Source: Clostridiales bacterium
GTDB lineage: Bacteria; Bacillota_A; Clostridia; Lachnospirales; Lachnospiraceae
Direction: 5' to 3'
NCBI GenBank assembly: GCA_030154385.1
Contig: JASKJZ010000012.1
Span: 1-18,800, forward strand
Length of the DNA: 18,800 nucleotides
In this document: one piece after another, positions 3,061 to 13,894 of the stretch
Position numbering within the stretch: position 1 is the first letter of the stretch
Layout: every line of letters starts with the position of its first letter
Notes under the pieces: generated by a model
What the model saw: the letters and a program-made list of their open reading frames with translations, nothing else
Databases searched by the model: none
Told to the model about the DNA's origin: nothing
Position numbers and translations under genes: made by a program

Positions 3061-3477
3061 TTATTTTTTGCTCCCAGGCATATCAAATTCTGGATTAAAA
3101 GCGTAAAAGTTTTTGAAATTCAATTCATCTTGCACTCTTCGAAGTGCTTCACCGAAACGTTGATAATGAACGAGTTCCCGCTGTCTTAAAAATCGAATGG
3201 GGTCACAGATCTCTGGATCTTTTATCAAACGTAAAATATTGTCATATGTCGTACGTGCTTTTTGTTCTGCTGCCAGATCTTCGTTCAGATCGGTGATAGC
3301 ATCTCCTTTTGACTGAAATTCGCAGGCATTAAAGGGAATCCCACCTGCTGCCTGTGGCCAAAGAGCAGTCGTATGATCGACATAATAATTAGCATAGCCA
3401 GAACGCTCGATTTCGTCCGGGGTTAGATCCTTTGTTAATTGATATACTATGGTCGAGACCATTTCCATATGAGCCAA
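3061..3477 (-). CDS. cotJC: cotJC C-terminal piece (exon 3), separated from the rest of the gene
   Basis: This encodes the last 138 residues of a CotJC / manganese catalase-like spore coat protein, beginning ELAHMEMVSTIVYQLTKD and ending in GSKK. In the rebuilt protein it supplies the metal ligand His68 (ELAH), Glu136 (AAEQKAR) and His169 (RELVH), matching the family's diiron-like dimanganese ligands. It has no start codon of its own: TTG 3477-3475 is an internal Leu codon, and no Shine-Dalgarno precedes it. Upstream of 3480 the frame runs into A/T-rich element DNA with no CotJC similarity. The rest of the gene lies 4.0 and 8.0 kb away on the same strand (7505-7606 and 11480-11572). Joining them across the GA core at 3479-3480 keeps phase exactly. 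Family assignment is firm; restoration by excision is inferred. Confidence 0.95.
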   Translation of the reverse strand: MAHMEMVSTIVYQLTKDLTPDEIERSGYANYYVDHTTALWPQAAGGIPFNACEFQSKGDAITDLNEDLAAEQKARTTYDNILRLIKDPEICDPIRFLRQRELVHYQRFGEALRRVQDELNFKNFYAFNPEFDMPGSKK

Positions 3478-3478
3478 T

Positions 3479-3490
3479 TCGTTGGTTCGT
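3479..3490 (-). other. Element 1 attachment half-site beside cotJC exon 3
   Basis: On the minus strand the arm ACGAACCA (3490-3483) is followed by AC, then the core GA (3480-3479), then cotJC exon 3. The matching arm TGGTTCGT is at 7503-7496, the same distance from the GA core at 7507-7506. Confidence 0.85.
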
Positions 3491-3526
3491 TTTCCTGATA
3501 ATAAAAAAGACTTGAAATTCAGATAA

Positions 3527-3555
3527 TAATAGTATAGAATGAGATAAAATACAAA
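3527..3555 (+). promoter_or_regulatory. Weak sigma-E-like promoter before the nitroreductase
   Basis: TAATAGT (3527-3533), 14 bases, then AATACAAA (3548-3555) resembles the Bacillus sigma-E pattern KMATATT-N14-CATACAMT (6/7 and 6/8). The stretch is very A/T-rich, so a chance match is quite possible. Confidence 0.25.
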
Positions 3556-3633
3556 ATAAAAATAATTTATCAGAAAAAATAAAGGAAATGAACAAAAAAA
3601 TATAAATAATTGAATTGAAATGGAGGAAACAAT

Positions 3634-4230
3634 ATGAAGGATTTATATCAGGCAGTAGCAGACAGAAGAACTTACTATGCAATACAAAAGGAAGCACCTG
3701 TTTCCGATGCTCGGATTAAAGAAGTGATGGAACATGCCATACGCCATACGCCAACTGCGTTTAATTCACAAAGCGGAAGGGTGGTCTTGTTGCTTGGCAA
3801 GAAACATGATCGTTTATGGGAGATTGCAAAGGAAGCTTTACAAAAGGTGGTACCAGCGGAACAATTTGAGGCAACTGCCGGGAAAATTAACAGTTTCCAA
3901 AATGGTTATGGAACCGTACTTTATTTTGAAGATCAGACAGTTGTAGAGGGTCTTCAGCAGCAATTCCCACTGTATAAAGACAATTTCCCAATCTGGTCGC
4001 AGCAGGCGAGTGGGATGCTGCAATATGTGGTGTGGACATCCCTTGAAGCAGAAGGATTTGGTGCTTCTCTACAGCATTATGGAGAATTGATAGAACCTTT
4101 GGTGAAACAAGAATGGGGGCTTCCAGCGCATTGGAAACTAATTGCACAAATGCCATTTGGTGCACCAGCAGCAAATCCAGACGAAAAGCAGTACCAGCCA
4201 TTAGAGGAACGATTTGTGATAAAGGAATAA
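3634..4230 (+). CDS. Nitroreductase family protein (Frm2/Hbn1-like)
   Basis: A 198-residue FMN-dependent nitroreductase-fold protein, close to the usual ~200 residues. The N-terminus (YQAVADRRTYYAIQKEAPVSD) has the typical FMN-phosphate-binding Arg pair, followed by RHTPTAFNSQSGRVVLL. The later stretch SGMLQYVVWTSLEAEGFGASLQHY is characteristic of the Frm2/Hbn1 branch, which reduces nitroaromatic or quinone-like compounds with NAD(P)H in the cytosol. ATG 3634 follows a good Shine-Dalgarno (ggagg, 3622-3626). It lies inside element 1 and is transcribed towards the MCP gene, but a strong terminator separates them. Its role on a sporulation-linked element is unknown. Confidence 0.88.
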   Translation: MKDLYQAVADRRTYYAIQKEAPVSDARIKEVMEHAIRHTPTAFNSQSGRVVLLLGKKHDRLWEIAKEALQKVVPAEQFEATAGKINSFQNGYGTVLYFEDQTVVEGLQQQFPLYKDNFPIWSQQASGMLQYVVWTSLEAEGFGASLQHYGELIEPLVKQEWGLPAHWKLIAQMPFGAPAANPDEKQYQPLEERFVIKE

Positions 4231-4244
4231 AATGAATATGGATT

Positions 4245-4307
4245 AAAAACAAGGATTTTTTCTTGAAGACCAGCATTTTCTTCAAGAAAAAGTCCTTTGT
4301 TTTTTGT
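4245..4307 (+). terminator. Intrinsic terminator after the nitroreductase gene
   Basis: A long, nearly perfect stem pairs AAAACAA-GGATTTTTTCTTGAAGA-type sequence at about 4245-4269 with its complement at 4279-4302, around a 9-base loop. A T-rich tail follows. Confidence 0.85.
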
Positions 4308-4369
4308 AGAAAACGACGATTTTACAAGCATTTTGACAAATGTAGCGTTTTGTATCTTGTATTTAAAAG

Positions 4370-4377
4370 CATACATT
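4370..4377 (+). promoter_or_regulatory. Sigma-E-like -10 box upstream of the MCP gene
   Basis: CATACATT matches the sigma-E -10 consensus CATACAMT at 7 of 8 positions, 46 bases before the MCP start. The -35 region is poor. A TTGACA hexamer at 4333-4338 could instead serve a housekeeping promoter, but I find no good -10 at 17 bp from it. Confidence 0.35.
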
Positions 4378-4423
4378 GATAGGATGGTGAGAGCAAAATT
4401 TATATAAGGAGAGTGACAGTAGT

Positions 4424-6160
4424 ATGAAGCGAATCAAAAATATGAAGGTAACCCAGAAATTGTTTTTATTGTACATACCATCTCTTATTGCGGTGCTAGG
4501 ATTGCTAATACTGTTTGTATATAATGCAAACAGTATCAATCAAAAAACTAGAACCATTTATTACGATGAGGTATATACCAGTACGGAATTAATATTAAAT
4601 GCAGATCGTGACTTTTACCAGGCTGTATTAGCAGAAAAAGAACTTTTTTTAAGCGGAAGCACTCTTGATGCAAGCAGGAAGGAGAGCTTAGAAAAAGATT
4701 ACACAGATAATATAACGCAGACAGAGGATCGCGTACGGCAAGCTGTTGAGAATGTAAAAGAAAATAAATCACTGTATCATGATTTTAAAAATCCGGCAGA
4801 CCAAGAGACATTAGAGTCCTTATATGAAGCATTTACCAATAATATGCAAACATGGAAGGATTCTTATGACATTAGCACGTTAACAGGAGATATGGATACC
4901 CATTTGTCAGCCTTTGATACCGCACGTGGAAATATCAATAGTATGACCGAACTCCTGGAGGAATATGCGAAGGATAGTGCAAACTCCATTACGCAGGATA
5001 TTCAAACAAAAATTATTATTTTGGCAGTAGCCTTTGTGATTTTGATTGTATTATTATCAATTGTTGCGGGTATCATTGTACGTTATCTGAAAACGAGCAT
5101 TTTACATACCACACAGGATATGAAAAAGTTAACGGAACGTGATTTGTCCTTTGAACCCTTTCATCAGCAAACGAAGGATGAATTAGGGGAACTTTCCGAT
5201 TCTGTAAAAGAAATGGTTTCGTCCCTGAAAAAAATGGTAGGACTTTTAGATGAGACCTCAACAAGATTAAGTGAATCTTCTGGTACCTTGCGTCTGAATT
5301 CGGATGAAATAACGACTTCTATGAATGAAATTGCAAATACAGTTGGAGAAATTGCTGAGTCGGCAGGACAACAAGCACAGGACTCCGAAATGGCTTCCAG
5401 AGAATTTGTGGAACTAGGAACCATTATTGTGCAAAATACAGATAGCACCCAAAAGCTAAAGGATGCGAGTAAACAGATGGAGATTGTTAGCAAGGAGGGG
5501 CTGGATACCGTTACCCAGTTATCCGATGTGACACAGAATAATAAAAAGGCCTTTCAATTAATTTTTGACACCATTTCGCATACCAATGAAAGCGCAGGAA
5601 AAATCGGAGAAGTAAGTGCTATTATCGCAGGAATTGCAGAACAGACCAATCTTTTAGCACTCAATGCTGCAATTGAAGCCGCAAGAGCAGGAGAGGCTGG
5701 TAAGGGCTTTGCTGTCGTAGCAGATGAAATCCGAAATCTGGCAGAACAATCCGCACAGTCGACCAATTCGATAAAAGAAATTCTGGATGTCTTGATGGGA
5801 CAAATCACAAATGCAAATATGCAAAGTACGGAGGTCAAAAAGGCCGTTGAGGTGCAGGCTCAAAGTGTGGAGGAAACGATGAACCGCTATCGGACTATTG
5901 TTGATACTCTAAAGTTTGTAAATGAAGAGATTATCACATTAGATCAGCTATCAAATACCATGGAGGCTAGCCGCCATAAGGTACTAGATATCATAACTTC
6001 ACTTTCTGCAATCGCGCAAGAAAATGCTGCCAGTACCGAAGAAACCTCTGCTACAACCGAGGAAATTCTAGCCTCAATGGTCACAATCAATGAGGCTGTA
6101 TCGCTAGGAGATCAGCTTGCTAATAATTTAAGAGGAGTCATACAGTCATTTCGTTTGTAA
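4424..6160 (+). CDS. Methyl-accepting chemotaxis protein
   Basis: A 578-residue transmembrane chemoreceptor. A first membrane helix (about residues 13-33) is followed by an extracellular region of ~160 mostly helical residues, 4HB-like. A second membrane helix (about 196-220), a HAMP linker (~221-270) and a cytoplasmic coiled-coil signalling domain follow. The conserved hairpin tip is at ~403-440 ([20 protein letters not shown], then [13 protein letters not shown]). The ligand cannot be read from the sequence. ATG 4424 is preceded by aaggagag (4406-4413). The gene sits alone inside element 1 and its last 23 bases overlap the 3' end of recombinase 1, which runs the other way. A chemoreceptor is unusual cargo for a sporulation-excised element. 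It may simply be host-derived DNA that is removed only in the dying mother cell. Confidence 0.95.
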
Positions 6161-7436
6161 GAGGTAACCTTGGGTAGACCGAGAGTACGATATGAGAGGA
6201 GGGATCCTCACCAGGCTGGCACCGGTTGACTTTCTCATAGACAATGTGATCCAATAGGATTCGTAAGTATTCATTTTTTTGTGCGGGCAGACATGGAAGA
6301 GGATAGGTTTTTACCGTATGAAAATATTGGTTTATAAATAGGAGAAGGATAGACTCTAACGCCTCAAAATCGCAGCCAATTGTTCTGCAGCCTTTAGTGG
6401 GACAAATTAATAGTTCCTTGTTTGTCTTTGTTATGATGCGACGAAGCAGCGTATGTCCACAATATGGACAACGAAGAAGTCCTGCAAAGGAATTTTTTAT
6501 CGTAGGATTCTTTTTTAAGGGACTTTTTTTATAAAAGGAGCGGAGCCTTTTGGCTGCATCAAAGGTTATGGGGTCAATTATGGGAGGATGGATACCATCA
6601 ACAATTTGGTAGATGGTATTTTTTTTTCTCTTTTTTTGGATAACCCCCCGATGAATGGTTTCGATTGTTTGGTTGTATCCGATTTTAACTTTCCCAAGAT
6701 AGGTTTCATTTTCTAACATAGAAGCAATCGTGGATGGTTTCCATGTATTATCCCTGCTGTTTGGTATCTGCATTTTGTTTAGCTGATTGCAGATTGCTTG
6801 CATGCCAAGCGTTTCAGTTTTACCTTCCGCCTGTTGATAGCCTTTTGTATACCATTCGAAAATAAGAGAGACGATGGCAGCCTTCTCTTCCTCTGGTTGG
6901 AGGGTGTAACCTTTTTCATGCATTAGCCTTACAATCTTGTATCCATACGGGGCGCTCCGGTAAGGCCATTTCCCTTCCAGTGCAGCTTGAATTCTTCCTC
7001 GTATCAAGCGCCTTTTTATGGCATAGTATTCCCTTCGGCTTAAAAAAAGTCCAAACTCAAAAGCATCGTTATCAAACTCATTGTTGGGGTGGTATTCCTT
7101 GGAGGGCGTAATAATCGTGGTGTTTGTGATGCGGAAAATACGCTGGATGGTGCCCTGATCAGCGGTATCGCCTCTTGCCAGTCGCTCTAACTCAACCACA
7201 AATACACCCGTCCATCTTCCGTTTTCCACATCTCGAAGGAGGGAGCACATCTGAGGGCGGGAATCAATGCTGTCTCCAGAACACACCTCACAGTAAAATT
7301 TTTCAATCTCAATCTGTTTATCTGCCGCGAGTTTGCAAAGGATATTTTTATGGCGAGCTAGCGTTTCCTCAGTGCTTATGGCATTCCGCTCTTCATCCAT
7401 ACGGGATTTTCTTAAATAGGCGCAATAGTGATCCAT
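6138..7436 (-). CDS. Large serine recombinase 1 (excisionase/integrase of element 1)
   Basis: A 432-residue site-specific serine recombinase. The catalytic domain begins [11 protein letters not shown] with nucleophile Ser11, and conserved arginines lie in ERLARGD (~84-89). The recombinase domain (~150-270) contains [15 protein letters not shown] and [14 protein letters not shown] zinc ribbon is at ~323-350 (CPYC...CPTKGC). Such enzymes cut at a 2-bp core through a Ser-DNA bond. The gene lies at the edge of element 1, 47 bp after the point where the middle cotJC frame stops, with RBS gggag before ATG 7436. Sigma-E-like boxes lie just upstream (7461-7489). It is short for the family and clearly different from recombinase 2. 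Its predicted substrate is the GA-core site pair at 3479/7506. Confidence 0.95.
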
Positions 7437-7460
7437 CTCTTTCTCCCAGGGTTTTTTATT

Positions 7461-7489
7461 AGCCTATGAGGGTTGCGATTCATTTATGC
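7461..7489 (-). promoter_or_regulatory. Sigma-E-like promoter of recombinase 1
   Basis: On the minus strand GCATAAA (7489-7483), 14 bases, then CATAGGCT (7468-7461), about 24 bases before ATG 7436. Five of seven and six of eight positions match the Bacillus sigma-E consensus. CATAGGCTA also fits the sigma-K -10 pattern CATANNNTA. The promoter lies wholly inside element 1. Confidence 0.5.
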
Positions 7490-7495
7490 AGTACC

Positions 7496-7507
7496 ACGAA
7501 CCATTTC
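7496..7507 (-). other. Element 1 attachment half-site beside cotJC exon 2
   Basis: On the minus strand the core GA (7507-7506) is followed by AA, then the arm TGGTTCGT (7503-7496). This arm is the exact reverse complement of ACGAACCA at 3490-3483, at the same distance from the core. Confidence 0.85.
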
Positions 7508-7606
7508 TTCGGTTCCGATGTCAGTCAGAAGCCCTGCAACCTCTCGATATGGCATTGTGTAGCGTTGTGAAAGATAGCGCATGCTGGCGGCTAGCTCTCC
7601 ATCTGG
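7505..7606 (-). CDS. cotJC: cotJC middle piece (exon 2), between the two elements
   Basis: Too short to be seen as an ORF. On the minus strand it encodes PDGELAASMRYLSQRYTMP followed by YREVAGLLTDIGTEE, 34 residues. This is exactly the CotJC / Mn-catalase segment missing between the N-terminal piece (ending ISQFGG) and the C-terminal piece (starting LAHMEM). It carries metal ligands Glu35 (GELAA) and Glu65 (last residue, beside the junction). Before PDGE the frame reads YGG from element-boundary bases; after TEE it continues MVRGTA and stops at 7484-7486. The 104-bp stretch 7506-7609 is all the host sequence left between the elements. Its 5' end overlaps the last codons of recombinase 2, read in another frame. 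Confidence 0.93.
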
Positions 7607-9018
7607 TCCCCCGTATTGCAAGATACGCTTTCTTTTTGGGGCAGATAAAAAGGAAGGAAAAAGGTATTGGTATCTTTCTCAAAAACAATGGGATGAAGGA
7701 TGGAGCGAATTGCATTTGCTTTTTGGAAATCGGCGATAGAATCCAAGGAAATGAGTTCGTATAGGGAACGAATCTGTTTCGGAAGGGGGTATTTTACAAG
7801 TGGGGAGGAATTTATTTCGATCAGTGTATCAAGAAGCGCTTCTGTTTGGGGAGACTTATTTGTTAGGCGGTAGCCAGTCAAAAGCCCATTTGTTTCAAAA
7901 GGTTGAAGAGCAAGCAGTAAAATTTTGGTGGCTTTTGATAAGGAAAGGGAGCTAATACTTTGACACATTCCCTTTGTATAGCCCCAACATCGAAATTGTT
8001 GATATACCGACCCCTTCTTTTGAATTGTGGATAACGTAAGTGTACGCTTGCAGGCAGCACATTGAAAGAGCCCGGAAAGCCAGTGTTTGCAATAGGAAGC
8101 ATCGTGACTTCCCTTTTTTGTCTGGTTTTGCTTTATGCGCTGACTGACTTCATGGAAGAGACTTTCTGTGATAATTGGAGCGTGCAGACCGTCTGCTAAT
8201 ATGATGTCATTTGCGTCGCGATAACAGCAATGAGATCGATCATAATAGTTCCACCGTACCTTACCGATATAAAATGGATTTTGCAAAATGTAAGAAATGG
8301 AACGTCCTTCAAAATGACCGCCTCTTTTGGTATGATAACCTGCATCATTTAAAAGGCGTGCAATCTGGGTATAGCTATATCCTTCTAAGTACGATTGAAA
8401 AATGAATAAGATGATGGATTTTTCCTGTTCGTTTATTGTGGGAGGTTTTTTATTTCCAGCGAAATCGTAGCCAATTGGCGGGGCCGATTGATAGGCACCG
8501 CGCCTGGCATTTTCTTTCATGCCCCGCAATACCTCATCGGAAAGACGGATGGAATAGTATTCATCCATCCATTCGATAATACGCTCATTGAGCTTGCCAA
8601 AGGGACCCTCTTCGAGTGGTTCGGTGATGCTAATGACTGCAACACCATAATGAGAGAGCAGCTTTTTATAAACGATGCTCTCCTCTTGGTTTCGGGCAAA
8701 GCGCGAAAAACGCCATACCAGGATTGCAAGAAAGGGTGGAGTCTTGCTTTTTGCAAGTGCAAGCATTTCGCGAAAGGCGGCGCGTCCCTTTACGCTTCTC
8801 CCAGAAACTCCATTTTGTTCCAGAAAAATATATTCTTTTGGGAGAAAAAAATGATGGCTGGCAGCATATTCAATGCCAAGCTTAAGCTGAGTAACGGGAG
8901 AGAGTTCGGTTTGTTCCTCTGTGCTGACTCTAATATAGAGCGCGGCGGTTTTTTCCCAGGAATTCGAAGTATCCGCATCTGGTAGAGAAGCGATAATTTT
9001 TTGTATTTCATGATCCAT
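7591..9018 (-). CDS. Large serine recombinase 2 (excisionase/integrase of element 2)
   Basis: A 475-residue serine recombinase with catalytic Ser32 in LYIRVSTEEQTE and conserved arginines in VWRFSRFARN (~102-110). A recombinase domain follows (~165-300; GAYQSAPPIGYDF, QNPFYIGKVRWNYYDRSH), then a zinc ribbon (~320-352; CAAC...CWGYTKGMC). ATG 9018 has a good RBS (ggagtg). The last codons (DQMES) and the TAG stop (7593-7591) lie beyond the GG core, inside host cotJC exon 2, so the normal C-terminus depends on the integrated state. In an excised circle the frame would run on ~33 codons past the junction. It is transcribed in the cotJC direction from a sigma-E-like promoter. It belongs to a different branch from recombinase 1, which suggests an independent insertion. 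Confidence 0.95.
   Translation of the reverse strand: MDHEIQKIIASLPDADTSNSWEKTAALYIRVSTEEQTELSPVTQLKLGIEYAASHHFFLPKEYIFLEQNGVSGRSVKGRAAFREMLALAKSKTPPFLAILVWRFSRFARNQEESIVYKKLLSHYGVAVISITEPLEEGPFGKLNERIIEWMDEYYSIRLSDEVLRGMKENARRGAYQSAPPIGYDFAGNKKPPTINEQEKSIILFIFQSYLEGYSYTQIARLLNDAGYHTKRGGHFEGRSISYILQNPFYIGKVRWNYYDRSHCCYRDANDIILADGLHAPIITESLFHEVSQRIKQNQTKKGSHDASYCKHWLSGLFQCAACKRTLTLSTIQKKGSVYQQFRCWGYTKGMCQSISSLSLSKATKILLLALQPFETNGLLTGYRLTNKSPQTEALLDTLIEINSSPLVKYPLPKQIRSLYELISLDSIADFQKANAIRSILHPIVFEKDTNTFFLPFYLPQKESVSCNTGDQMES
7608..7621 (-). other. Element 2 attachment half-site beside cotJC exon 2
   Basis: On the minus strand the arm TTGCAATACG (7621-7612) is followed by GG, then the core GG (7609-7608), then A and cotJC exon 2. 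The reverse-complement arm is at 11478-11469, at the same distance from the core at 11482-11481. Confidence 0.87.
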
Positions 9019-9050
9019 TTCGTATCACTCCAGTAATATGGTTGCTATCT

Positions 9051-9079
9051 AGTATATTTTGCGGACAAAAAGGCTATTC
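9051..9079 (-). promoter_or_regulatory. Sigma-E-like promoter of recombinase 2
   Basis: On the minus strand GAATAGC (9079-9073), 14 bases, then AATATACT (9058-9051), 32 bases before ATG 9018. Matches to KMATATT-N14-CATACAMT are 5/7 and 6/8. The sigma-K -10 form CATANNNTA is also met at 8 of 9 positions. The spacer is the same as in front of recombinase 1. Confidence 0.5.
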
Positions 9080-9161
9080 CAAAAGAATATTATCGGGTAT
9101 AATTAAGTTAGAAATAGAAGCAGAAGGTATTACAATATCATGTAGGAAAGGTGGACTTATT

Positions 9162-9578
9162 ATGGAGCGTACCCTAGTTATTATCAAACCAGAGGCCGTA
9201 AAAAAGAAGTTGGTTGGGAGAATTATTTCAATTTATGAGGACAATCGAATGGAAATCATTCATGCCCACAGAGTCCTTCCAACGAAGGAAGTATTGGAAA
9301 AGCATTATGCAGCACATATCGGAAAAGATTTTTATGAGAGTCTGGTAGACTTTATGTCCTCCTCCGAGGTTATGGTTTTGATTTTGGAGGGAGAGGAAGT
9401 GGTCAACCTAGTTCGTGCAATCAATGGTTCTACGAATCCACTAAAAGCAGCACCGGGAACCATCCGTTATATGTTCGGAGAAACTGTGCAACGAAATGCG
9501 GTGCATGGTTCGGAATCGGTAGAGGCTGCCAAAGCTGAAATTGAAATATGGAGGGAACTTATTCGGTTTGAAAATTAA
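9162..9578 (+). CDS. ndk: Nucleoside diphosphate kinase
   Basis: A 138-residue protein, the normal length for the family. The start ERTLVIIKPEAV carries the conserved Lys of the NDK fold. The active-site signature RNAVHGSES holds the catalytic His that is phosphorylated, and the C-terminus EIEIWREL is typical. It moves the gamma-phosphate between NTPs and NDPs in the cytosol. ATG 9162 has an RBS (aaaggtgg) just upstream. The frame is open further upstream to 9042, but the homology begins here. A TATAAT hexamer at 9098-9103 could be its -10; I find no convincing -35. It diverges from recombinase 2 and leads a run of three plus-strand genes within element 2. It looks intact, and whether the host has a second ndk copy elsewhere cannot be seen. 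Confidence 0.96.
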   Translation: MERTLVIIKPEAVKKKLVGRIISIYEDNRMEIIHAHRVLPTKEVLEKHYAAHIGKDFYESLVDFMSSSEVMVLILEGEEVVNLVRAINGSTNPLKAAPGTIRYMFGETVQRNAVHGSESVEAAKAEIEIWRELIRFEN

Positions 9579-9610
9579 TCGCTTCGCATAGAATATATGG
9601 GAGGTGTTCT

Positions 9611-9910
9611 ATGCGAAACGAAACAGAACCGAAGCTAGTCTATTCCATTCAATACGGGAAAGATCCTCCGATTTTCTTGGATACGCTTTCCATAGAGGAG
9701 AGGGAAGCGGTTTTTATGGCACTTAATGATGCCGCGCTTCGCTCCTTAGCGTACGAGCCTTTGCAACGTGAAAAGGAAAAAAGATGCAAGAAAGGAAGGG
9801 CGAATGGAACAAGAGGTTTCGTTTATACCACCGAAAAATCCAAGCCGTGCACAAAGAGAACAGATGATTCGAAAAGCACTTCTAGAAGCGAAGCATCCGG
9901 AGGATTATGA
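9611..9910 (+). CDS. Small hypothetical protein overlapping the amine oxidase start
   Basis: I do not recognise this 99-residue product. A strong RBS (gggaggt) precedes ATG 9611, 32 bases after the ndk stop, so co-transcription with ndk is likely. Residues 1-55 look like a genuine soluble protein (KLVYSIQYGKDPPIFLDTLS). From about residue 56 it becomes Lys/Arg/Ser-rich and low in complexity, and its last 107 bases overlap the amine oxidase in another frame. Either the tail is fortuitous or a frameshift has altered an originally shorter protein. Because serine-recombinase elements often encode a small directionality factor, it is a candidate for that role by position only. Confidence 0.55.
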   Translation: MRNETEPKLVYSIQYGKDPPIFLDTLSIEEREAVFMALNDAALRSLAYEPLQREKEKRCKKGRANGTRGFVYTTEKSKPCTKRTDDSKSTSRSEASGGL

Positions 9911-11492
9911 CAATTTAATGGAGCTTCTTCGACCACCAAAGGATATTTTACAGGTAGCACCAGCTGGTATTGCAAAGGGAATGCATATTGGGATTATTGG
10001 CGCAGGATTGGCAGGACTATGTGCTGCCTATGAACTACAAAAGCTTGGTTTTGACATCACCTTTTTGGAGTTACAGCAAAACCGCATAGGCGGAAGGGTA
10101 CATACCTATTATTTTAATCCGGGCAAAAGCTTGTATGGGGAGCTTGGCGCCATGCGGATTCCTGTGATTCATGAAACGGTGTGGCATTTTATTGATTTGT
10201 TTGGGCTATCTACCAGACCATTTGTTCAAAACAATGAGAATGCATGGATTTATGTCAGAGGGCAGAGAGTCAGAAATGATGCGGATGGCTTAGCGGTTAT
10301 GCAAAAGATATACCCTTTGTTTCCGTTGACGCAGAAAGAAAGAAAAACACCGTGGCAAGTGCTCTTAGATACAGCGCTTACAAGCTATTTCTATACCATT
10401 CCGGTTTCGATGCGTCGTGAAATTCTAGAAATAAAAAAGCACTATAGTGAATTAATTACTGCGCTGGATTATCAGAATATACGAAAGGTCATGGAAAGTA
10501 CGGGACTTAGTCAGGGCGCGATTAATATGCTCTCTGGCATCATGCCCTTTGTCGGTGAGACCTTGTATCGAAGTTATTTTGAAAGCCTGCAAGAGACTTA
10601 TACGGTAGATTCTGCGTATCGTTATGAGATTGAGGGAGGTATGGAGAAACTTCCTCAATCTTTTTACAAATTTTTAAAAGAAAGAGCGAAGGAAGGAAAA
10701 AGGATACGCTTTAAAATGGGGTGCCGAGTTGATAAAATTATCCGAAAAGAGAACAAGCAGCTTCTTTTGTCCTATCAAAAGGAGAGAGGTAGAGAGAGGG
10801 TGTGGGAGGCCTTTGATTTTGTTCTTTGCACCATTCCGTTTTCGAGTCTTCGAAATGTACAAATCGATTCTGTACTATCTGCTGGTAAAATACAGGCAAT
10901 ACGGGAAGTTTCGTATATCTCCGCTCAAAAGAGCCTCCTTTTATGCAAGGAGCGCTTCTGGGAGAGAGGAGGGAGTGAACAAAGAATCGTAGGAGGAGGC
11001 TCCTATACGGATTTGTTGATTTCAAGTACATGGTATCCGTCAATACGAGCATATTCGCTCGTAGGGGAGGAAGACTGGAAACATATGGGGGTTTTGCTGG
11101 CTTCTTACAATCTGGGGCAGGATGCACTCCGCCTTGGAAATCTGGAACCTTCCTACAAAGAGCAAGTGCTTTTTTGGCAGCTAGAAGCATTGCACGGATT
11201 GCCAAAAGGCTATTTACGAGATATTGTTCTTTCGAGAAAATCCGTTTTATGGAATCATGAGGCTGGATTTTACGGTGGATTTTGTTATTATATGCCAGAA
11301 CAAAAACGGCTCTTTTCCTTTGTAAGCGGCAGTCCGGAATATGATGGACTTTTGTATTTTGCGGGGGAACATACCTCTTCTACTCATGGCTGGCAGCAAG
11401 GTGCAATGCATAGCGGGCTGCGGGCAGCCAACGAAATTGCAGCCAAGTTGCGAGACGGTAGTCGTCTTTTGCAATACGCTCCACCGAATTGA
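9804..11492 (+). CDS. Flavin-dependent amine oxidase
   Basis: A 562-residue FAD amine oxidase (monoamine oxidase / tryptophan 2-monooxygenase superfamily). The dinucleotide-binding motif GIIGAGLAGLCAAYEL is near residue 65, followed by GGRVHTYYF. The C-terminal flavin signature is LYFAGEHTSSTHGWQQGAMHSGLRAANEI. Such enzymes oxidise amines or amino acids to imines with release of H2O2. ATG 9804 is chosen for its ggaaggg RBS; an upstream in-frame ATG at 9768 lacks one. The last three codons (PPN, TGA) lie in host cotJC exon 1 beyond the GG core, so its stop codon depends on element 2 being integrated. The substrate is unknown. Proximity to a catalase-like coat gene (H2O2 producer beside an H2O2 remover) is suggestive only. 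Confidence 0.92.
   Translation: MEQEVSFIPPKNPSRAQREQMIRKALLEAKHPEDYDNLMELLRPPKDILQVAPAGIAKGMHIGIIGAGLAGLCAAYELQKLGFDITFLELQQNRIGGRVHTYYFNPGKSLYGELGAMRIPVIHETVWHFIDLFGLSTRPFVQNNENAWIYVRGQRVRNDADGLAVMQKIYPLFPLTQKERKTPWQVLLDTALTSYFYTIPVSMRREILEIKKHYSELITALDYQNIRKVMESTGLSQGAINMLSGIMPFVGETLYRSYFESLQETYTVDSAYRYEIEGGMEKLPQSFYKFLKERAKEGKRIRFKMGCRVDKIIRKENKQLLLSYQKERGRERVWEAFDFVLCTIPFSSLRNVQIDSVLSAGKIQAIREVSYISAQKSLLLCKERFWERGGSEQRIVGGGSYTDLLISSTWYPSIRAYSLVGEEDWKHMGVLLASYNLGQDALRLGNLEPSYKEQVLFWQLEALHGLPKGYLRDIVLSRKSVLWNHEAGFYGGFCYYMPEQKRLFSFVSGSPEYDGLLYFAGEHTSSTHGWQQGAMHSGLRAANEIAAKLRDGSRLLQYAPPN
11469..11482 (-). other. Element 2 attachment half-site beside cotJC exon 1
   Basis: On the minus strand cotJC exon 1 ends in the core GG (11482-11481), followed by AG, then the arm CGTATTGCAA (11478-11469). 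It pairs with the arm at 7621-7612. Confidence 0.87.
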
Positions 11493-11572
11493 CTAATAAT
11501 CACCATGGCCATCTGCGGATTGCATTTTGTAATGTTGATTGGATATTGCAGACGTTTTTCATAATTCCACAT
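11480..11572 (-). CDS. cotJC: cotJC N-terminal piece (exon 1)
   Basis: ATG 11572 overlaps the cotJB stop (TAATG), so translation is coupled as in normal cotJ operons. It encodes 31 CotJC residues, MWNYEKRLQYPINITKCNPQ then MAMVIISQFGG. After that the frame leaves the family (AYCKRR...) and ends at 11384. The next expected residues, PDGELAA, are at 7606 on the same strand. Read without rearrangement it could only give an ~62-residue truncated product lacking every metal ligand. Joined to exons 2 and 3 it gives a 203-residue protein, against ~190 for Bacillus CotJC, with a short extra C-terminal tail. Family assignment is firm, and its interruption is directly visible. Confidence 0.95.
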
Positions 11573-11844
11573 TAATTGCACACACCCCTTCCTTGTACCT
11601 CCCAAGGCCATGGACTTTGAACCCATGCCCAGTAGTTGTCGCTGATTACAGTTTCATCACTCAAAGGACCATAGAGTTTCGTATATTCCATGACCGACTG
11701 ATGACGCAGTTTTTTGTAGGTATCATAGTATTCTAATGCCTGCTGATCCTCTGGGTGTGTATCCAGATAGAGCACAACATCGTCTATGGCAAAACTTACT
11801 TCCGAGATAAACATAAGAAGCTTTTGCTGATCATCCATTCTCAT
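11572..11844 (-). CDS. cotJB: Spore coat protein CotJB
   Basis: A 90-residue protein matching CotJB in size and sequence: DQQKLLMFISEVSFAIDDVV, then LYLDTHPEDQQALEYYDTY, and a Trp/Pro-rich end (NYWAWVQSPWPWE). It is a small coat or coat-associated protein made in the mother cell with CotJA and CotJC. The start at 11844 overlaps the cotJA stop (ATGA), with aaggag about 11 bases upstream; a longer frame to 11889 is not needed. The stop overlaps the cotJC start. The gene is intact, unlike its partner cotJC. Confidence 0.95.
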   Translation of the reverse strand: MRMDDQQKLLMFISEVSFAIDDVVLYLDTHPEDQQALEYYDTYKKLRHQSVMEYTKLYGPLSDETVISDNYWAWVQSPWPWEVQGRGVCN

Positions 11845-12068
11845 CGCATCCCACATCTCCTTCCGTTTCCCATATTTCCTTCCCGGCAAACAGGGCTAGC
11901 AAAAAGGAACGGAAAAATAAGTTCACCAAAAATGGTTCCTTTTCGAAGTCCATTGGAGGCATCGTAGACATTTTTCCAGGTTTGCCAAGGGACATATGCC
12001 ATGGCAAGCGGCATTTCATCTAACGCTCTATTTTGACAATTGCAGCCATAAGATTTCATGCAATCCAT
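11841..12068 (-). CDS. cotJA: Spore coat associated protein CotJA
   Basis: A 75-residue protein with the CotJA core MAYVPWQTWKNVYDASNGLR and then KGTIFGELIFPF. The N-terminus is Cys-rich (CMKSYGCNC). ATG 12068 has an RBS (gagaggagtg) 8 bases upstream. It is the first gene of the cotJABC operon, with ATGA overlap into cotJB. A mother-cell-type -10 box lies ~47 bases upstream. In other spore formers CotJA is needed for proper incorporation of CotJC in the coat. Confidence 0.95.
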   Translation of the reverse strand: MDCMKSYGCNCQNRALDEMPLAMAYVPWQTWKNVYDASNGLRKGTIFGELIFPFLFASPVCREGNMGNGRRCGMR

Positions 12069-12114: not shown

Positions 12115-12142
12115 TAGTCTATGCAAGGAGTGTTTGATGGTG
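12115..12142 (-). promoter_or_regulatory. Mother-cell (sigma-K/E-like) promoter of cotJABC
   Basis: On the minus strand CACC (12142-12139), 15 bases, then CATAGACTA (12123-12115), about 47 bases before the cotJA start. The -10 fits the sigma-K pattern CATANNNTA fully and the sigma-E CATACAMT at 7 of 8. The -35 suits sigma-K (MACM) better than sigma-E. Confidence 0.5.
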
Positions 12143-12421
12143 CTTGCTATATTAAATTATTCCGTAGTTTATAATCCAAATAGTGGTATAGAAAAAGATA
12201 AAGAATCAGGCGAAGAAGGATACGAAACAGTAAAAAAAGAGCGGGTGCATATTGCAGCCAAAATAGTGTATAGGGTGATCGCAAATTTCGAAGCTGTAAG
12301 AAAAAAAGACATAGGGAATCTCCGAGAAAGCCATAGGTCATTCTTTTTAGCCGTGTATCCAAGTAGTGGTATTTTTTTGAAAAAGAGGGAAGAACGTCAT
12401 CCGTTCTTCCTTTTTTTATAG
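12137..12421 (+). CDS. Possible small hydrophilic protein, uncertain
   Basis: A 94-residue frame with ATG 12137 and a good RBS (aaggag, 12124-12129). The composition is Lys/Glu-rich, and it ends at TAG right after a strong intrinsic terminator stem, which is why it is listed. No family is recognised. It overlaps almost completely a minus-strand frame (12147-12608), and at most one of them is likely to be real over this stretch. Its RBS sits directly beside the cotJA promoter. Confidence 0.3.
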   Translation: MVLAILNYSVVYNPNSGIEKDKESGEEGYETVKKERVHIAAKIVYRVIANFEAVRKKDIGNLRESHRSFFLAVYPSSGIFLKKREERHPFFLFL

Positions 12422-12608
12422 AAAGGGATAGTAAAAAATCGCAGAAAAAAATAAAGGAAATACCATAAACAGCTTCGATTTGTTGAAAAGTGGAACTTTC
12501 ATACAAAAACAGAAAGATGAGAAATCCAATGGTCACGACATGTACAAAAAGCAAGGAAAGTAGTTTGCCTGTATTTTTAACGCGAAGTATTAACAATTCA
12601 TTTGACAT
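12147..12608 (-). CDS. Possible small membrane protein, uncertain
   Basis: A 153-residue frame from ATG 12608, with ggagg 11 bases upstream. The first ~65 residues look like a membrane protein with two hydrophobic helices (LLSLLFVHVVTIGFLIFLFL; YGISFIFFCDFLLSL). The rest is Leu/Phe/Tyr/Arg-rich and could be a shadow of the plus-strand frame 12137-12421. A terminator hairpin falls inside it. No family is recognised. The stretch 12124-12751 as a whole holds only these two doubtful frames, the terminator and a possible promoter. Confidence 0.4.
   Translation of the reverse strand: MSNELLILRVKNTGKLLSLLFVHVVTIGFLIFLFLYESSTFQQIEAVYGISFIFFCDFLLSLSIKKGRTDDVLPSFSKKYHYLDTRLKRMTYGFLGDSLCLFFLQLRNLRSPYTLFWLQYAPALFLLFRILLRLILYLFLYHYLDYKLRNNLI
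12388..12417 (+). terminator. Intrinsic terminator, plus strand
   Basis: A perfect 9-bp stem GGAAGAACG / CGTTCTTCC (12388-12396, 12402-12410) with a 5-base loop is followed by seven T (12411-12417). On the other strand it has a shorter CTCTTTTT tail, so it may act in both directions. Confidence 0.8.
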
Positions 12609-12653
12609 AGTAGGGGGAACCTCCGTGTGTTCTTGGTGATTATCCTATTAGTA

Positions 12654-12681
12654 TAAGGGAAATGTCTTTTTTTGTCGATAT
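12654..12681 (+). promoter_or_regulatory. Possible sigma-D (flagellar) promoter
   Basis: TAAG (12654-12657), 16 bases, then GTCGATAT (12674-12681) resembles TAAA-N15-GCCGATAT. It lies 70 bases before the EF-hand-like gene. The spacer is one base long and each box has one mismatch. Confidence 0.3.
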
Positions 12682-12751
12682 AGAATATGCATGCATATGG
12701 TGTGGGAGTACCATGCTGTGAGACATGAAAAAAACATGGAGGTATGTAGAT

Positions 12752-13159
12752 ATGAAAATAATGTCAAGTAATGTAGGCATGTCATCTGAACGGATGTACC
12801 TGTCACAGAAAGTGGATTTGTTTTCGTATTCTGGCTGGGGCAATGAAACAGCTGCATCTACATTGCCAACAGCTAAGGAGAGCGTGCAACAAATCGAAAC
12901 ACAGACAAAACGGGAGTGCCAGTTTTGTCTCACCTTGGAGGAAAAGCTGGAGGACCTCGAACGCGAACAAAAGGTATTTAAAAAAAAACAGACGAGTTTT
13001 GAACGTGCAAAAAAGAGTTCTTTCCAGGCAAAGAACCCCGTCGAGTATGATACCTTTCGTAATCTTTTATTGCTCCTATTTGGGACGGCGAAGGAAAAAA
13101 CGGATTGGTCAGCAGAGTTTCGAAGAATTTTGGCGAGGCGTCGCGAGGATTTTTCGTAG
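12752..13159 (+). CDS. N-terminal part of a split EF-hand-like protein gene
   Basis: A 135-residue frame starting MKIMSSNVGMSSERMYLSQK, chosen over 12725 because ggagg (12738-12742) is correctly spaced from ATG 12752. It includes a coiled-coil-like charged segment (EEKLEDLEREQKVFKKKQ). The frame ends at TAG 13157-13159, and the same frame resumes at once and continues to 13894 as the C-terminal part of what looks like one protein family. I know this family only as conserved clostridial proteins of unknown function with a C-terminal calcium-binding-like region. A single nonsense mutation is the simplest reading. Confidence 0.65.
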   Translation: MKIMSSNVGMSSERMYLSQKVDLFSYSGWGNETAASTLPTAKESVQQIETQTKRECQFCLTLEEKLEDLEREQKVFKKKQTSFERAKKSSFQAKNPVEYDTFRNLLLLLFGTAKEKTDWSAEFRRILARRREDFS

Positions 13160-13171
13160 GCAATTGCCATT

Positions 13172-13894
13172 ATGGGGGAGCGGGACGCTTCTAACTTCGA
13201 ATCCCTTGCTCCGAGTGAGGAATGGGGTAATAGCTACCAAGAGGTACATTATTTGGAAGAACAGGAAACAACGAGTTTTTATTCCTCTGGAAAGGTCGTG
13301 ACCGCAGACGGCAAAAAGATTTCTTTTGATGTCTCGGCTACGATGTCAAGAAGCTTTCATCAATACTCAAGTTTGGAAATTAATTACGCAAGAGCAGCCT
13401 GCGTTGATCCGCTGGTGGTTAACCTGGATACAAACAGCGCTTCGGTGCGGGAACAGAAATTTTTATTTGATATTGATTGTGATGGAACAAGGGATAACAT
13501 TTCCATGCTTTCGAATCAGAGTGGTTTTCTTGCCCTTGACAAAAATGGAGATGGAATCATAAACGATGGCTCAGAACTGTTTGGTGCAAAAACGGGAGAT
13601 GGTTTCTCGGAGCTAGCTGCGTTTGATCTCGATCACAATGGATGGATTGATGAGAACGACCCTATCTTTAACCAATTACGGATCTGGACAAAGGATGAAT
13701 CTGGAAGAGATAAGCTTGTAGGCCTTGGGGTACAAGGAATCGGGGCTATTTATCTTGGAAATATCGAGACTGATTTTTCGCTTATGAGTAAAAGCAATGA
13801 GGCTCAGGCGCAGATTCGAAGTACTGGCATCTATCTAAAAGAAAATGGTGAGGCGGGTACCATACAGCATATGGACGTTTCCATATCCAATTAA
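13172..13894 (+). CDS. C-terminal part of the split EF-hand-like protein gene
   Basis: A 240-residue frame from ATG 13172, in the same frame as the upstream part and 12 bases after its TAG. No Shine-Dalgarno precedes ATG 13172, so it is probably not translated alone. The core VTADGKKISFDVSATMSRSF is followed by three Asp-rich, calcium-loop-like segments: DIDCDGTRD (~100), DKNGDGIINDGSELF (~123) and DLDHNGWIDENDPIF (~152). These resemble EF-hand or dockerin-type loops. The function is unknown. With read-through of the stop, the joined product would be ~380 residues. Otherwise both parts are remnants of a broken gene. Confidence 0.65.
   Translation: MGERDASNFESLAPSEEWGNSYQEVHYLEEQETTSFYSSGKVVTADGKKISFDVSATMSRSFHQYSSLEINYARAACVDPLVVNLDTNSASVREQKFLFDIDCDGTRDNISMLSNQSGFLALDKNGDGIINDGSELFGAKTGDGFSELAAFDLDHNGWIDENDPIFNQLRIWTKDESGRDKLVGLGVQGIGAIYLGNIETDFSLMSKSNEAQAQIRSTGIYLKENGEAGTIQHMDVSISN

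Follow-up and report, generated by a model that had tools for sequence, protein, structure and literature searches.

How can a spore coat gene that lies in three pieces, each held apart from the next by several other genes, still give a protein? The question is raised by cotJC in a Clostridiales bacterium of the Lachnospiraceae (assembly GCA_030154385.1), of which positions 1 to 18,800 of contig JASKJZ010000012.1 were analysed; this whole stretch of 18,800 nucleotides is called the window here. Two elements, E1 and E2, each with a gene for a large serine recombinase (LSR), interrupt cotJC. The three pieces are in-frame exons, and from sequence comparison we think it likely that each element would be precisely excised by its own LSR, most plausibly in the sporulating mother cell, and that an intact CotJC would result. 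The exons are these:

11480..11572, minus strand: cotJC exon 1, residues 1-31 (translation and alignment of the joined reading frame)
7505..7606, minus strand: cotJC exon 2, residues 32-65 (translation)
3061..3477, minus strand: cotJC exon 3, residues 66-203 and the stop codon (Pfam Mn_catalase, 4.7e-23)

A preliminary description had read these pieces as consecutive parts of one gene, and they translate as it claimed: 31, 34 and 138 codons join into 612 bp, 203 residues plus stop, with no change of phase. The joined protein also aligns end to end with CotJC of relatives, at 91% identity over 100% of the query to P0011 and at 92% over 97% to the protein of Velocimicrobium porci (P0007). Identity to the nearest full-length intact CotJC proteins is 91%–93% over 97%–100% of the length (best 120 of 7,994). 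Membership in the manganese catalase family (PF05067) is indicated both by the family match and by the metal ligands, as E35, E65, H68, E136 and H169 stand at ligand positions in the alignment to manganese catalase 1JKU, whose dimanganese ligands we take to be Glu35, Glu66, His69, Glu148 and His181. Relative to V. porci, nonsynonymous divergence (dN) is 0.061, 0.026 and 0.066 for exons 1, 2 and 3, and synonymous divergence (dS) is saturated and not computable in each. Such low dN beside saturated dS argues that all three exons are maintained under purifying selection. A chance resemblance of fragments was considered and ruled out on the end-to-end alignment; against it stand also the dinucleotide common to attL and attR in register, the palindromic circle junctions and the recurrence of the split points in other genomes.

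The gaps of 3.9 and 4.0 kb reported earlier can be sharpened to 3,873 and 4,027 bp, and each does contain its own serine recombinase gene. The elements, their recombinases and their attachment sites lie as follows:

7608..11482: E1, predicted circle of 3,873 bp (att crossovers)
3479..7507: E2, predicted circle of 4,027 bp (att crossovers)
7591..9018, minus strand: rec1, LSR of the site-A clade, 475 aa (Pfam Resolvase and Recombinase)
6138..7436, minus strand: rec2, LSR of the site-B1 clade, 432 aa (Pfam Resolvase and Recombinase; nearest solved relative SPbeta SprA/YokA)
11462..11502, minus strand: attL1, crossover GG at 11481-11482, outer limits approximate
7590..7630, minus strand: attR1, crossover GG at 7608-7609, outer limits approximate
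7486..7528, minus strand: attL2, crossover GA at 7506-7507, outer limits approximate
3459..3502, minus strand: attR2, crossover GA at 3479-3480, outer limits approximate

The GG core of E1 falls in codon Gly31 and the GA core of E2 in codon Glu65. When the circles are closed in silico, the junctions are palindromic around the common dinucleotide, over 14 of 20 pairs in E1 (TTGCAATACG-GGGGAG-CGTATTGCAA) and 12 of 20 pairs in E2 (ACGAACC...GGTTCGT). By its sequence, this is the anatomy of LSR attP sites. We propose that each LSR would recombine its own pair of sites, attL1 x attR1 for rec1 and attL2 x attR2 for rec2. Exchange by serine integrases requires matching central dinucleotides; because GG and GA differ, the two reactions should be kept apart and exon 2 shielded from loss.

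The same anatomy is seen more widely. When attL and attR are aligned in register at 39 junctions (two from the window, two from the genome G167 described below and 35 from 32 other loci), the central dinucleotide is identical in 39/39. The best attP palindrome is centered exactly on the position of its clade at 37 of the 39 junctions (exceptions L089 and L102); clade positions were first taken from the dyads and then applied to all junctions, which makes this a consistency check rather than a blind test. Mean dyad scores are 13.0/20 for attP and 6.1 for attB. Mismatched attP halves, taken from other elements at the same site, score a mean of 9.5 compared to 12.1 for true pairs, a rough control in which three registers are uncorrected.

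The junctions fall at five positions, namely A at Gly31 (GG), B2 at Gly62 (GG), B1 at Glu65 (GA), C at Glu136 (GA) and D at Glu175 (GA), B1 and B2 together forming site B. At all five the crossover dinucleotide occupies codon positions 1-2, and it is invariant at each site among 55 intact gapless cotJC genes. By the 1JKU alignment, with the ligands as assumed above, B1 and C coincide with codons of ligands; the other three positions, A, B2 and D, are at most six residues from one. We also considered that the sites are merely the most conserved stretches of the gene; in the same 55 genes this fits C (top 4%) and B1 (6%), is weaker for B2 (16%) and A (18.5%), and fails at D (68%).

How common is interruption of this gene? 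Our starting sample consisted of genome loci that encode CotJC exon 3, of which the best 80 were kept. Sixty of these have a single match from residue 1 or 2, six have at least two separated pieces, and in 13 the only match begins at residue 26 or later; in the remaining locus (L009) it begins at residue 10. In the family of V. porci, 279 of 397 genomes have a match at E ≤ 0.1 and 243 below 1e-5 (hand count). We searched again 71 of the 279, selected for a weak or partial best match, and the following counts are among the matches listed. Colinear cotJC pieces occur on one contig in 32 of the 71 genomes (hand count), split at site A in four, B in 19, C in seven and D alone in two (hand count). 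Nine of the 35 same-contig gaps are at most 5 kb and 11 are at least 20 kb. In three of the 32 genomes a single contig bears three pieces (G265 and G352 at B and D, G276 at C and D). Apparent A and B doubles in G197, G114 and G262 are dispersed among contigs. The three genomes of the V. porci genus comprise one with an intact gene, one with a split at B and one with no match; at class level, 251 of 391 genomes match at E ≤ 1e-5, and apparent partial matches at sites A and B occur there too. Five IMG/VR contigs of 18–46 kb carry cotJC pieces starting at site B, with a B1-type LSR in 4/5. One of the five, a 32-kb predicted provirus (L151), has its cotJC piece (residues 63-136) flanked by a B1-type LSR on one side and another LSR on the other, making it a B and C double. 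As judged from these sequences, cotJC is a recurrent element target at four sites, well beyond a single case, and the intact, singly interrupted and doubly interrupted relatives that the preliminary description had suggested looking for all exist.

Some site-B elements are unusual in size or content. Those of L090 (G353, ~1.6 kb) and L088 (G259, ~2.4 kb) are very small, L090 holding little beyond a recombinase open reading frame (ORF) shortened to 305 aa. The 25-kb element of G245 (L110, L111) has three LSR genes, of which two, distantly related to each other, lie side by side at the attR end. That of L089 (G125) has a C-truncated LSR and no attP palindrome, and looks dead. Near the end of contig C68 in G063, locus L087 has tandem copies of exon 3 (252-686 and 3792-4226) 3.5 kb apart and of equal identity to the query; these may be an alternative exon, a duplication or an assembly effect.

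The closest parallel is G167, in which cotJC is split at A and B on one 372,838-bp contig that holds exons 1-3 and the LSRs P0127 and P0248. Its joined cotJC is open over 203 codons and its dinucleotides are the same as those of the window. The methyl-accepting chemotaxis protein (MCP) of its E2 is 63% identical to that of the window E2, and a 5'-nucleotidase gene beyond exon 3 is common to both (55% identity). An assembly artefact or chimera would have had to produce the same double split, with the same dinucleotides and a homologous gene beyond exon 3, on this long contig as well; we give that explanation practically no weight and have set it aside. In V. porci (G001) cotJC is intact, and by these comparisons the double split is common to at least two lineages and absent without a scar from a third. 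The preliminary description had proposed a double skin-like system and knew of no other coat gene with two such elements so close together. The system itself is borne out by the att sites, the one LSR per element, the selection on the exons and the orthologous double in G167; its standing as a one-off is not. Gene order within E2 has changed, in that rec2 (6138-7436) adjoins exon 2 and its G167 orthologue (L144, 9523-11124) adjoins exon 3.

Do the recombinases sort by the site they occupy? Both rec1 and rec2 have the Resolvase and Recombinase domains of LSRs. The tree holds 50 LSRs whose site was assigned from where they lie within an element; L090 (<350 aa) was left out and the three LSRs of G245 were all labelled B. 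Sites A, C and D form one clade each and site B two, giving the five clades A, B1, B2, C and D. The four site labels require three changes on the tree, the minimum possible; with four reference proteins as a fifth label there are five changes, compared to 25.5 for shuffled labels. In this tree rec1 falls in clade A with P0125 and P0127, and rec2 in B1 with P0245 and P0248. P0125 and P0245 are both reported to lie on 103,002-bp contigs named Velocimicrobium sp.

If excision takes place, when would it occur? The features that bear on timing are:

12115..12141, minus strand: sigma-K-type promoter of the cotJ operon, AC-N16-CATAGACTA (pattern match)
11841..12068, minus strand: cotJA, intact (Pfam CotJA, 5.5e-17)
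11572..11889, minus strand: cotJB, intact, real start possibly within the ORF (Pfam CotJB, 2.2e-29)
7460..7468, minus strand: sigma-K-type -10 CATAGGCTA, 32 nt before rec2, -35 imperfect (matrix score 10.3)

The pattern AC-N15-17-CATANNNTA, which follows the sigma-K consensus, stands upstream of 39 of 67 cotJA genes, the window included, where 0.6 would be expected; a sigma-E-type pattern, also tried, was found before 0/67. With a matrix made from the cotJA sites, the region upstream of rec2 scores 10.3 and ranks second among 51 LSR upstream regions (open-ended LSRs left out of the scan). A score of 10 is reached by 2.9% of 409 control ORFs, which are mechanical ORFs of at least 200 aa and some of which are surely no genes, and by 0.9% of shuffles. 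Timing would thus be set by sigma K, both at the cotJ promoter and at the sigma-K-like sequence ahead of rec2. With E1 gone, rec2 would be linked to the cotJ promoter, and the two excisions could in this way be ordered. Both elements would stay in the forespore chromosome, through which the split gene would be inherited; earlier intervening elements lie almost without exception in genes of the mother cell, with the result that the spore retains the element (PMC6957869).

Some of the same evidence could also be read as that of plain mobile elements, proviruses or their remnants for which cotJC serves as a conserved attachment gene and which exit randomly or on damage, with no developmental control. 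Eleven of the 35 same-contig gaps (among the matches listed) are of the size class of at least 20 kb, the IMG/VR contigs have cotJC ends and in 4/5 a B1-type LSR, and LSR promoters are weakly sigma-K-like. The window elements are a different matter, at 4 kb each and with metabolic and chemotaxis cargo, and the cotJ operon that they interrupt has a sigma-K-type promoter. Besides their recombinases, they contain:

9768..11492, plus strand: flavin amine oxidase, E1 cargo (Pfam Amino_oxidase, 3.5e-43)
9162..9578, plus strand: nucleoside diphosphate kinase, E1 cargo, start set at ATG 9162 (Pfam NDK, 1.8e-44)
4424..6160, plus strand: MCP, E2 cargo
3634..4230, plus strand: nitroreductase-family protein, E2 cargo (Pfam, 6.5e-18)

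E1 carries rec1, the kinase and the oxidase, and E2 carries rec2, the MCP and the nitroreductase. In a PHROGs scan of six E1 and E2 proteins (all except the MCP), both integrases match phrog_95, the amine oxidase weakly matches a family of unknown function, and no phage family of known function is found besides the integrases. Weighing both sides, we regard uncontrolled mobile elements as a minority possibility, with odds of perhaps a quarter.

Could the two LSRs excise their elements unaided? Compared to their relatives, in-phase deletions have removed ~50 residues from rec1 and ~100 from rec2, in the stretch that runs from the zinc ribbon to the final helix-strand unit. On a single alignment, the coiled-coil segment is ~79 aa in rec1 (instead of ~128) and ~35 in rec2 (instead of ~136); most others have 118–140. 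It is also short in L083 (A, 44 residues), L086 (B2, 62) and L097 (C, 36), all with C-terminal ends kept, and the loss therefore occurred in several clades. AlphaFold models of rec1 and rec2 have no long coiled-coil helices (mean predicted local distance difference test, pLDDT, 83.5 and 79.6; predicted template-modeling score, pTM, 0.57 each). SPbeta SprA matches rec2 over residues 16-329 (E 1.4e-43) and the full-length rec2 orthologue over 16-513, and SprA complexes 9y66 and 9dxd are the top Foldseek matches of rec2. Much (rec1) or nearly all (rec2) of the C-terminal coiled-coil motif of LSRs is therefore missing from the two proteins, which remain LSRs by domain and descent as read from their sequences; we do not claim them as directional integrases.

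The coiled coil of LSRs blocks attL x attR recombination when the directionality factor (RDF) is absent. E2 has no free ORF longer than 38 aa outside rec2, the MCP and the nitroreductase, and a 99-aa ORF of E1 (9611-9910), considered as an RDF candidate, has no family match in PHROGs, NCBIfam, PADLOC or Pfam. Because both LSRs have lost much or nearly all of the coiled coil and E2 has no clear RDF gene, rec1 and rec2 are likely RDF-free, excision-biased enzymes with weak partner-free excision, and each would excise its element without a directionality factor. Weak partner-free excision would suit a terminal cell. A precedent is the LI integrase, which with its coiled coil deleted gives ~1.6% attB x attP and ~2.2% attL x attR recombination, its directionality gone (PMC10754689).

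A number of observations weigh against regulated, partner-free excision. Without its coiled coil the phiC31 integrase shows no activity, and that of the LI mutant is low, at ~2% (PMC10754689). E2 also has a 99-aa antisense ORF that half overlaps the nitroreductase gene, and an RDF might be a short or antisense ORF or be coded elsewhere. Across 36 of the 39 junctions (L089, L090 and L093 left out), coiled-coil-short LSRs go neither with significantly smaller elements (p = 0.23) nor with significantly better preservation of the att sites (p = 0.10), and both links were rejected. No sigma-K-like site was found before rec1 or either G167 LSR orthologue, and the upstream regions of all LSRs taken together show only a slight shift (p = 0.0005), a weak enrichment. 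Tree paths from the shared node are longer for the window LSRs, at 0.80 for rec1 compared to 0.48–0.53 for its orthologues and 0.97 for rec2 compared to 0.47–0.52, a difference to be expected from either decay or a change of role. An intact second cotJC in G167 means that reconstitution need not be essential.

Several of these points would be expected if two old phage-derived elements were dying in cotJC, their recombinases without an essential domain, the gene dead and a paralogue serving the spore. Both rec1 and rec2 have lost much or nearly all of the segment whose removal inactivates the phiC31 enzyme, their tree paths are long, an intact paralogue accompanies the split copy in G167, G136 and G274, and at least one related element, that of L089, seems dead. 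Yet all three exons are open and under purifying selection, the att dyads of the window are intact, and the LSR deletions are in phase with the C-terminal unit retained. The same loss in L083, L086 and L097 goes with attP dyads of 18, 17 and 13/20 (mean of all, 13.0), two of them at or near the highest. The preliminary description had taken a second intact cotJC as refuting its reading, and in G167 such a copy stands beside a split one with conserved exons, so it does not refute it there. Decay is to be taken seriously as an alternative but seems to us improbable, more so than uncontrolled mobility, and excision that restores cotJC remains the reading we prefer.

A more far-reaching version can be offered only tentatively, and as a whole we would sooner bet against it. 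In it, cotJC would be a landing platform in the Lachnospiraceae, on which five LSR families, each bound to one dinucleotide in the first two positions of a conserved Gly or Glu codon at or close to the metal ligands, split the gene singly or in pairs; the window LSRs, rid of the coiled coil that makes integrases one-way, would be one-gene, RDF-free, excision-only enzymes and the elements "DNA introns" of a coat gene; and removal of E1 would link rec2 to the sigma-K-driven cotJ operon, so that E1 and then E2 would leave in sequence, a two-step lock on a coat catalase.

How does this compare to known systems? As in skin, both elements lie inside a sporulation gene, their removal restores the frame, each has a site-specific recombinase, and attL and attR share a short core with an inverted-repeat attP. 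In sigK of B. subtilis and C. difficile, too, an element with an LSR lies in frame within a mother-cell gene, which excision restores. Unlike the window, skin is one element in a regulator gene, and the C. difficile LSR has the coiled coil and needs an RDF, both proteins being required for excision (PMC5025042); in the window a coat gene holds two elements, whose LSRs have lost much or nearly all of the coiled-coil segment. SPbeta in spsM is similar in that a spore-envelope gene is rebuilt in the mother cell (predicted for cotJC) and in that rec2 is related to SprA/YokA, and differs as a prophage with the RDF SprB and a single insertion, where E2 is 4 kb with three genes (PMC4191935). Like the window elements, gin in gerE of B. 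cereus ATCC10987 is a non-phage element in a small mother-cell gene with serine recombinases, but it is one 28.6-kb element with three recombinases and an additional factor, GirX (PMC5595907), compared to two elements with one recombinase each. The yin element in yabG of C. botulinum shares the clostridial sporulation gene, the LSR and the circle on excision (predicted in the window); it is prophage-like, described as unique and single, and has a putative RDF (PMC10747680). Spore-former cases in the available parts of the literature are single elements in single genes, namely sigK, spsM, spoVFB, spoVR, gerE and yabG (PMC5595907, PMC10747680, PMC4191935). Heterocyst interruption elements offer a case of more than one element per gene in a differentiating cell, with multiple elements in ten of 87 interrupted genes and four in one nifD (PMC4874684), though in cyanobacterial hosts that form no spores and in other genes. 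None of the papers listed in the literature searches, most subscription papers being outside their reach, concerns an intervening element in cotJC; phi027 of C. difficile adjoins a CotJC homologue (PMC11222575), and the word "catalase" is absent from the main text of a survey of LSR targets (PMC10083194), as far as that text was available.

A 600-bp gene with four sites for five LSR clades, interrupted once, twice or, in some relatives, not at all, amounts to a natural experiment in how selfish elements become developmental DNA introns. If excision without a partner and without the coiled coil is true, it suggests how domesticated elements escape the need for an RDF, and compact excision-biased recombinases would be on offer. 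The five att positions likewise represent five LSR specificities within one target gene.

Between cotJA and the MreB/Mbl gene (12147-13894) lie three ORFs, at 12147-12608 on the minus strand and at 12725-13159 and 13172-13894 on the plus strand, with no Pfam matches; the first and third are also without an NCBIfam match. Within E1, the final codons and stop of the amine oxidase gene lie inside cotJC exon 1 (11480-11492) and the stop of rec1 lies inside exon 2 (7591-7609). Both genes thus reach across the att sites into the exons, and both C-termini would change upon excision; P0128 seems to end similarly.

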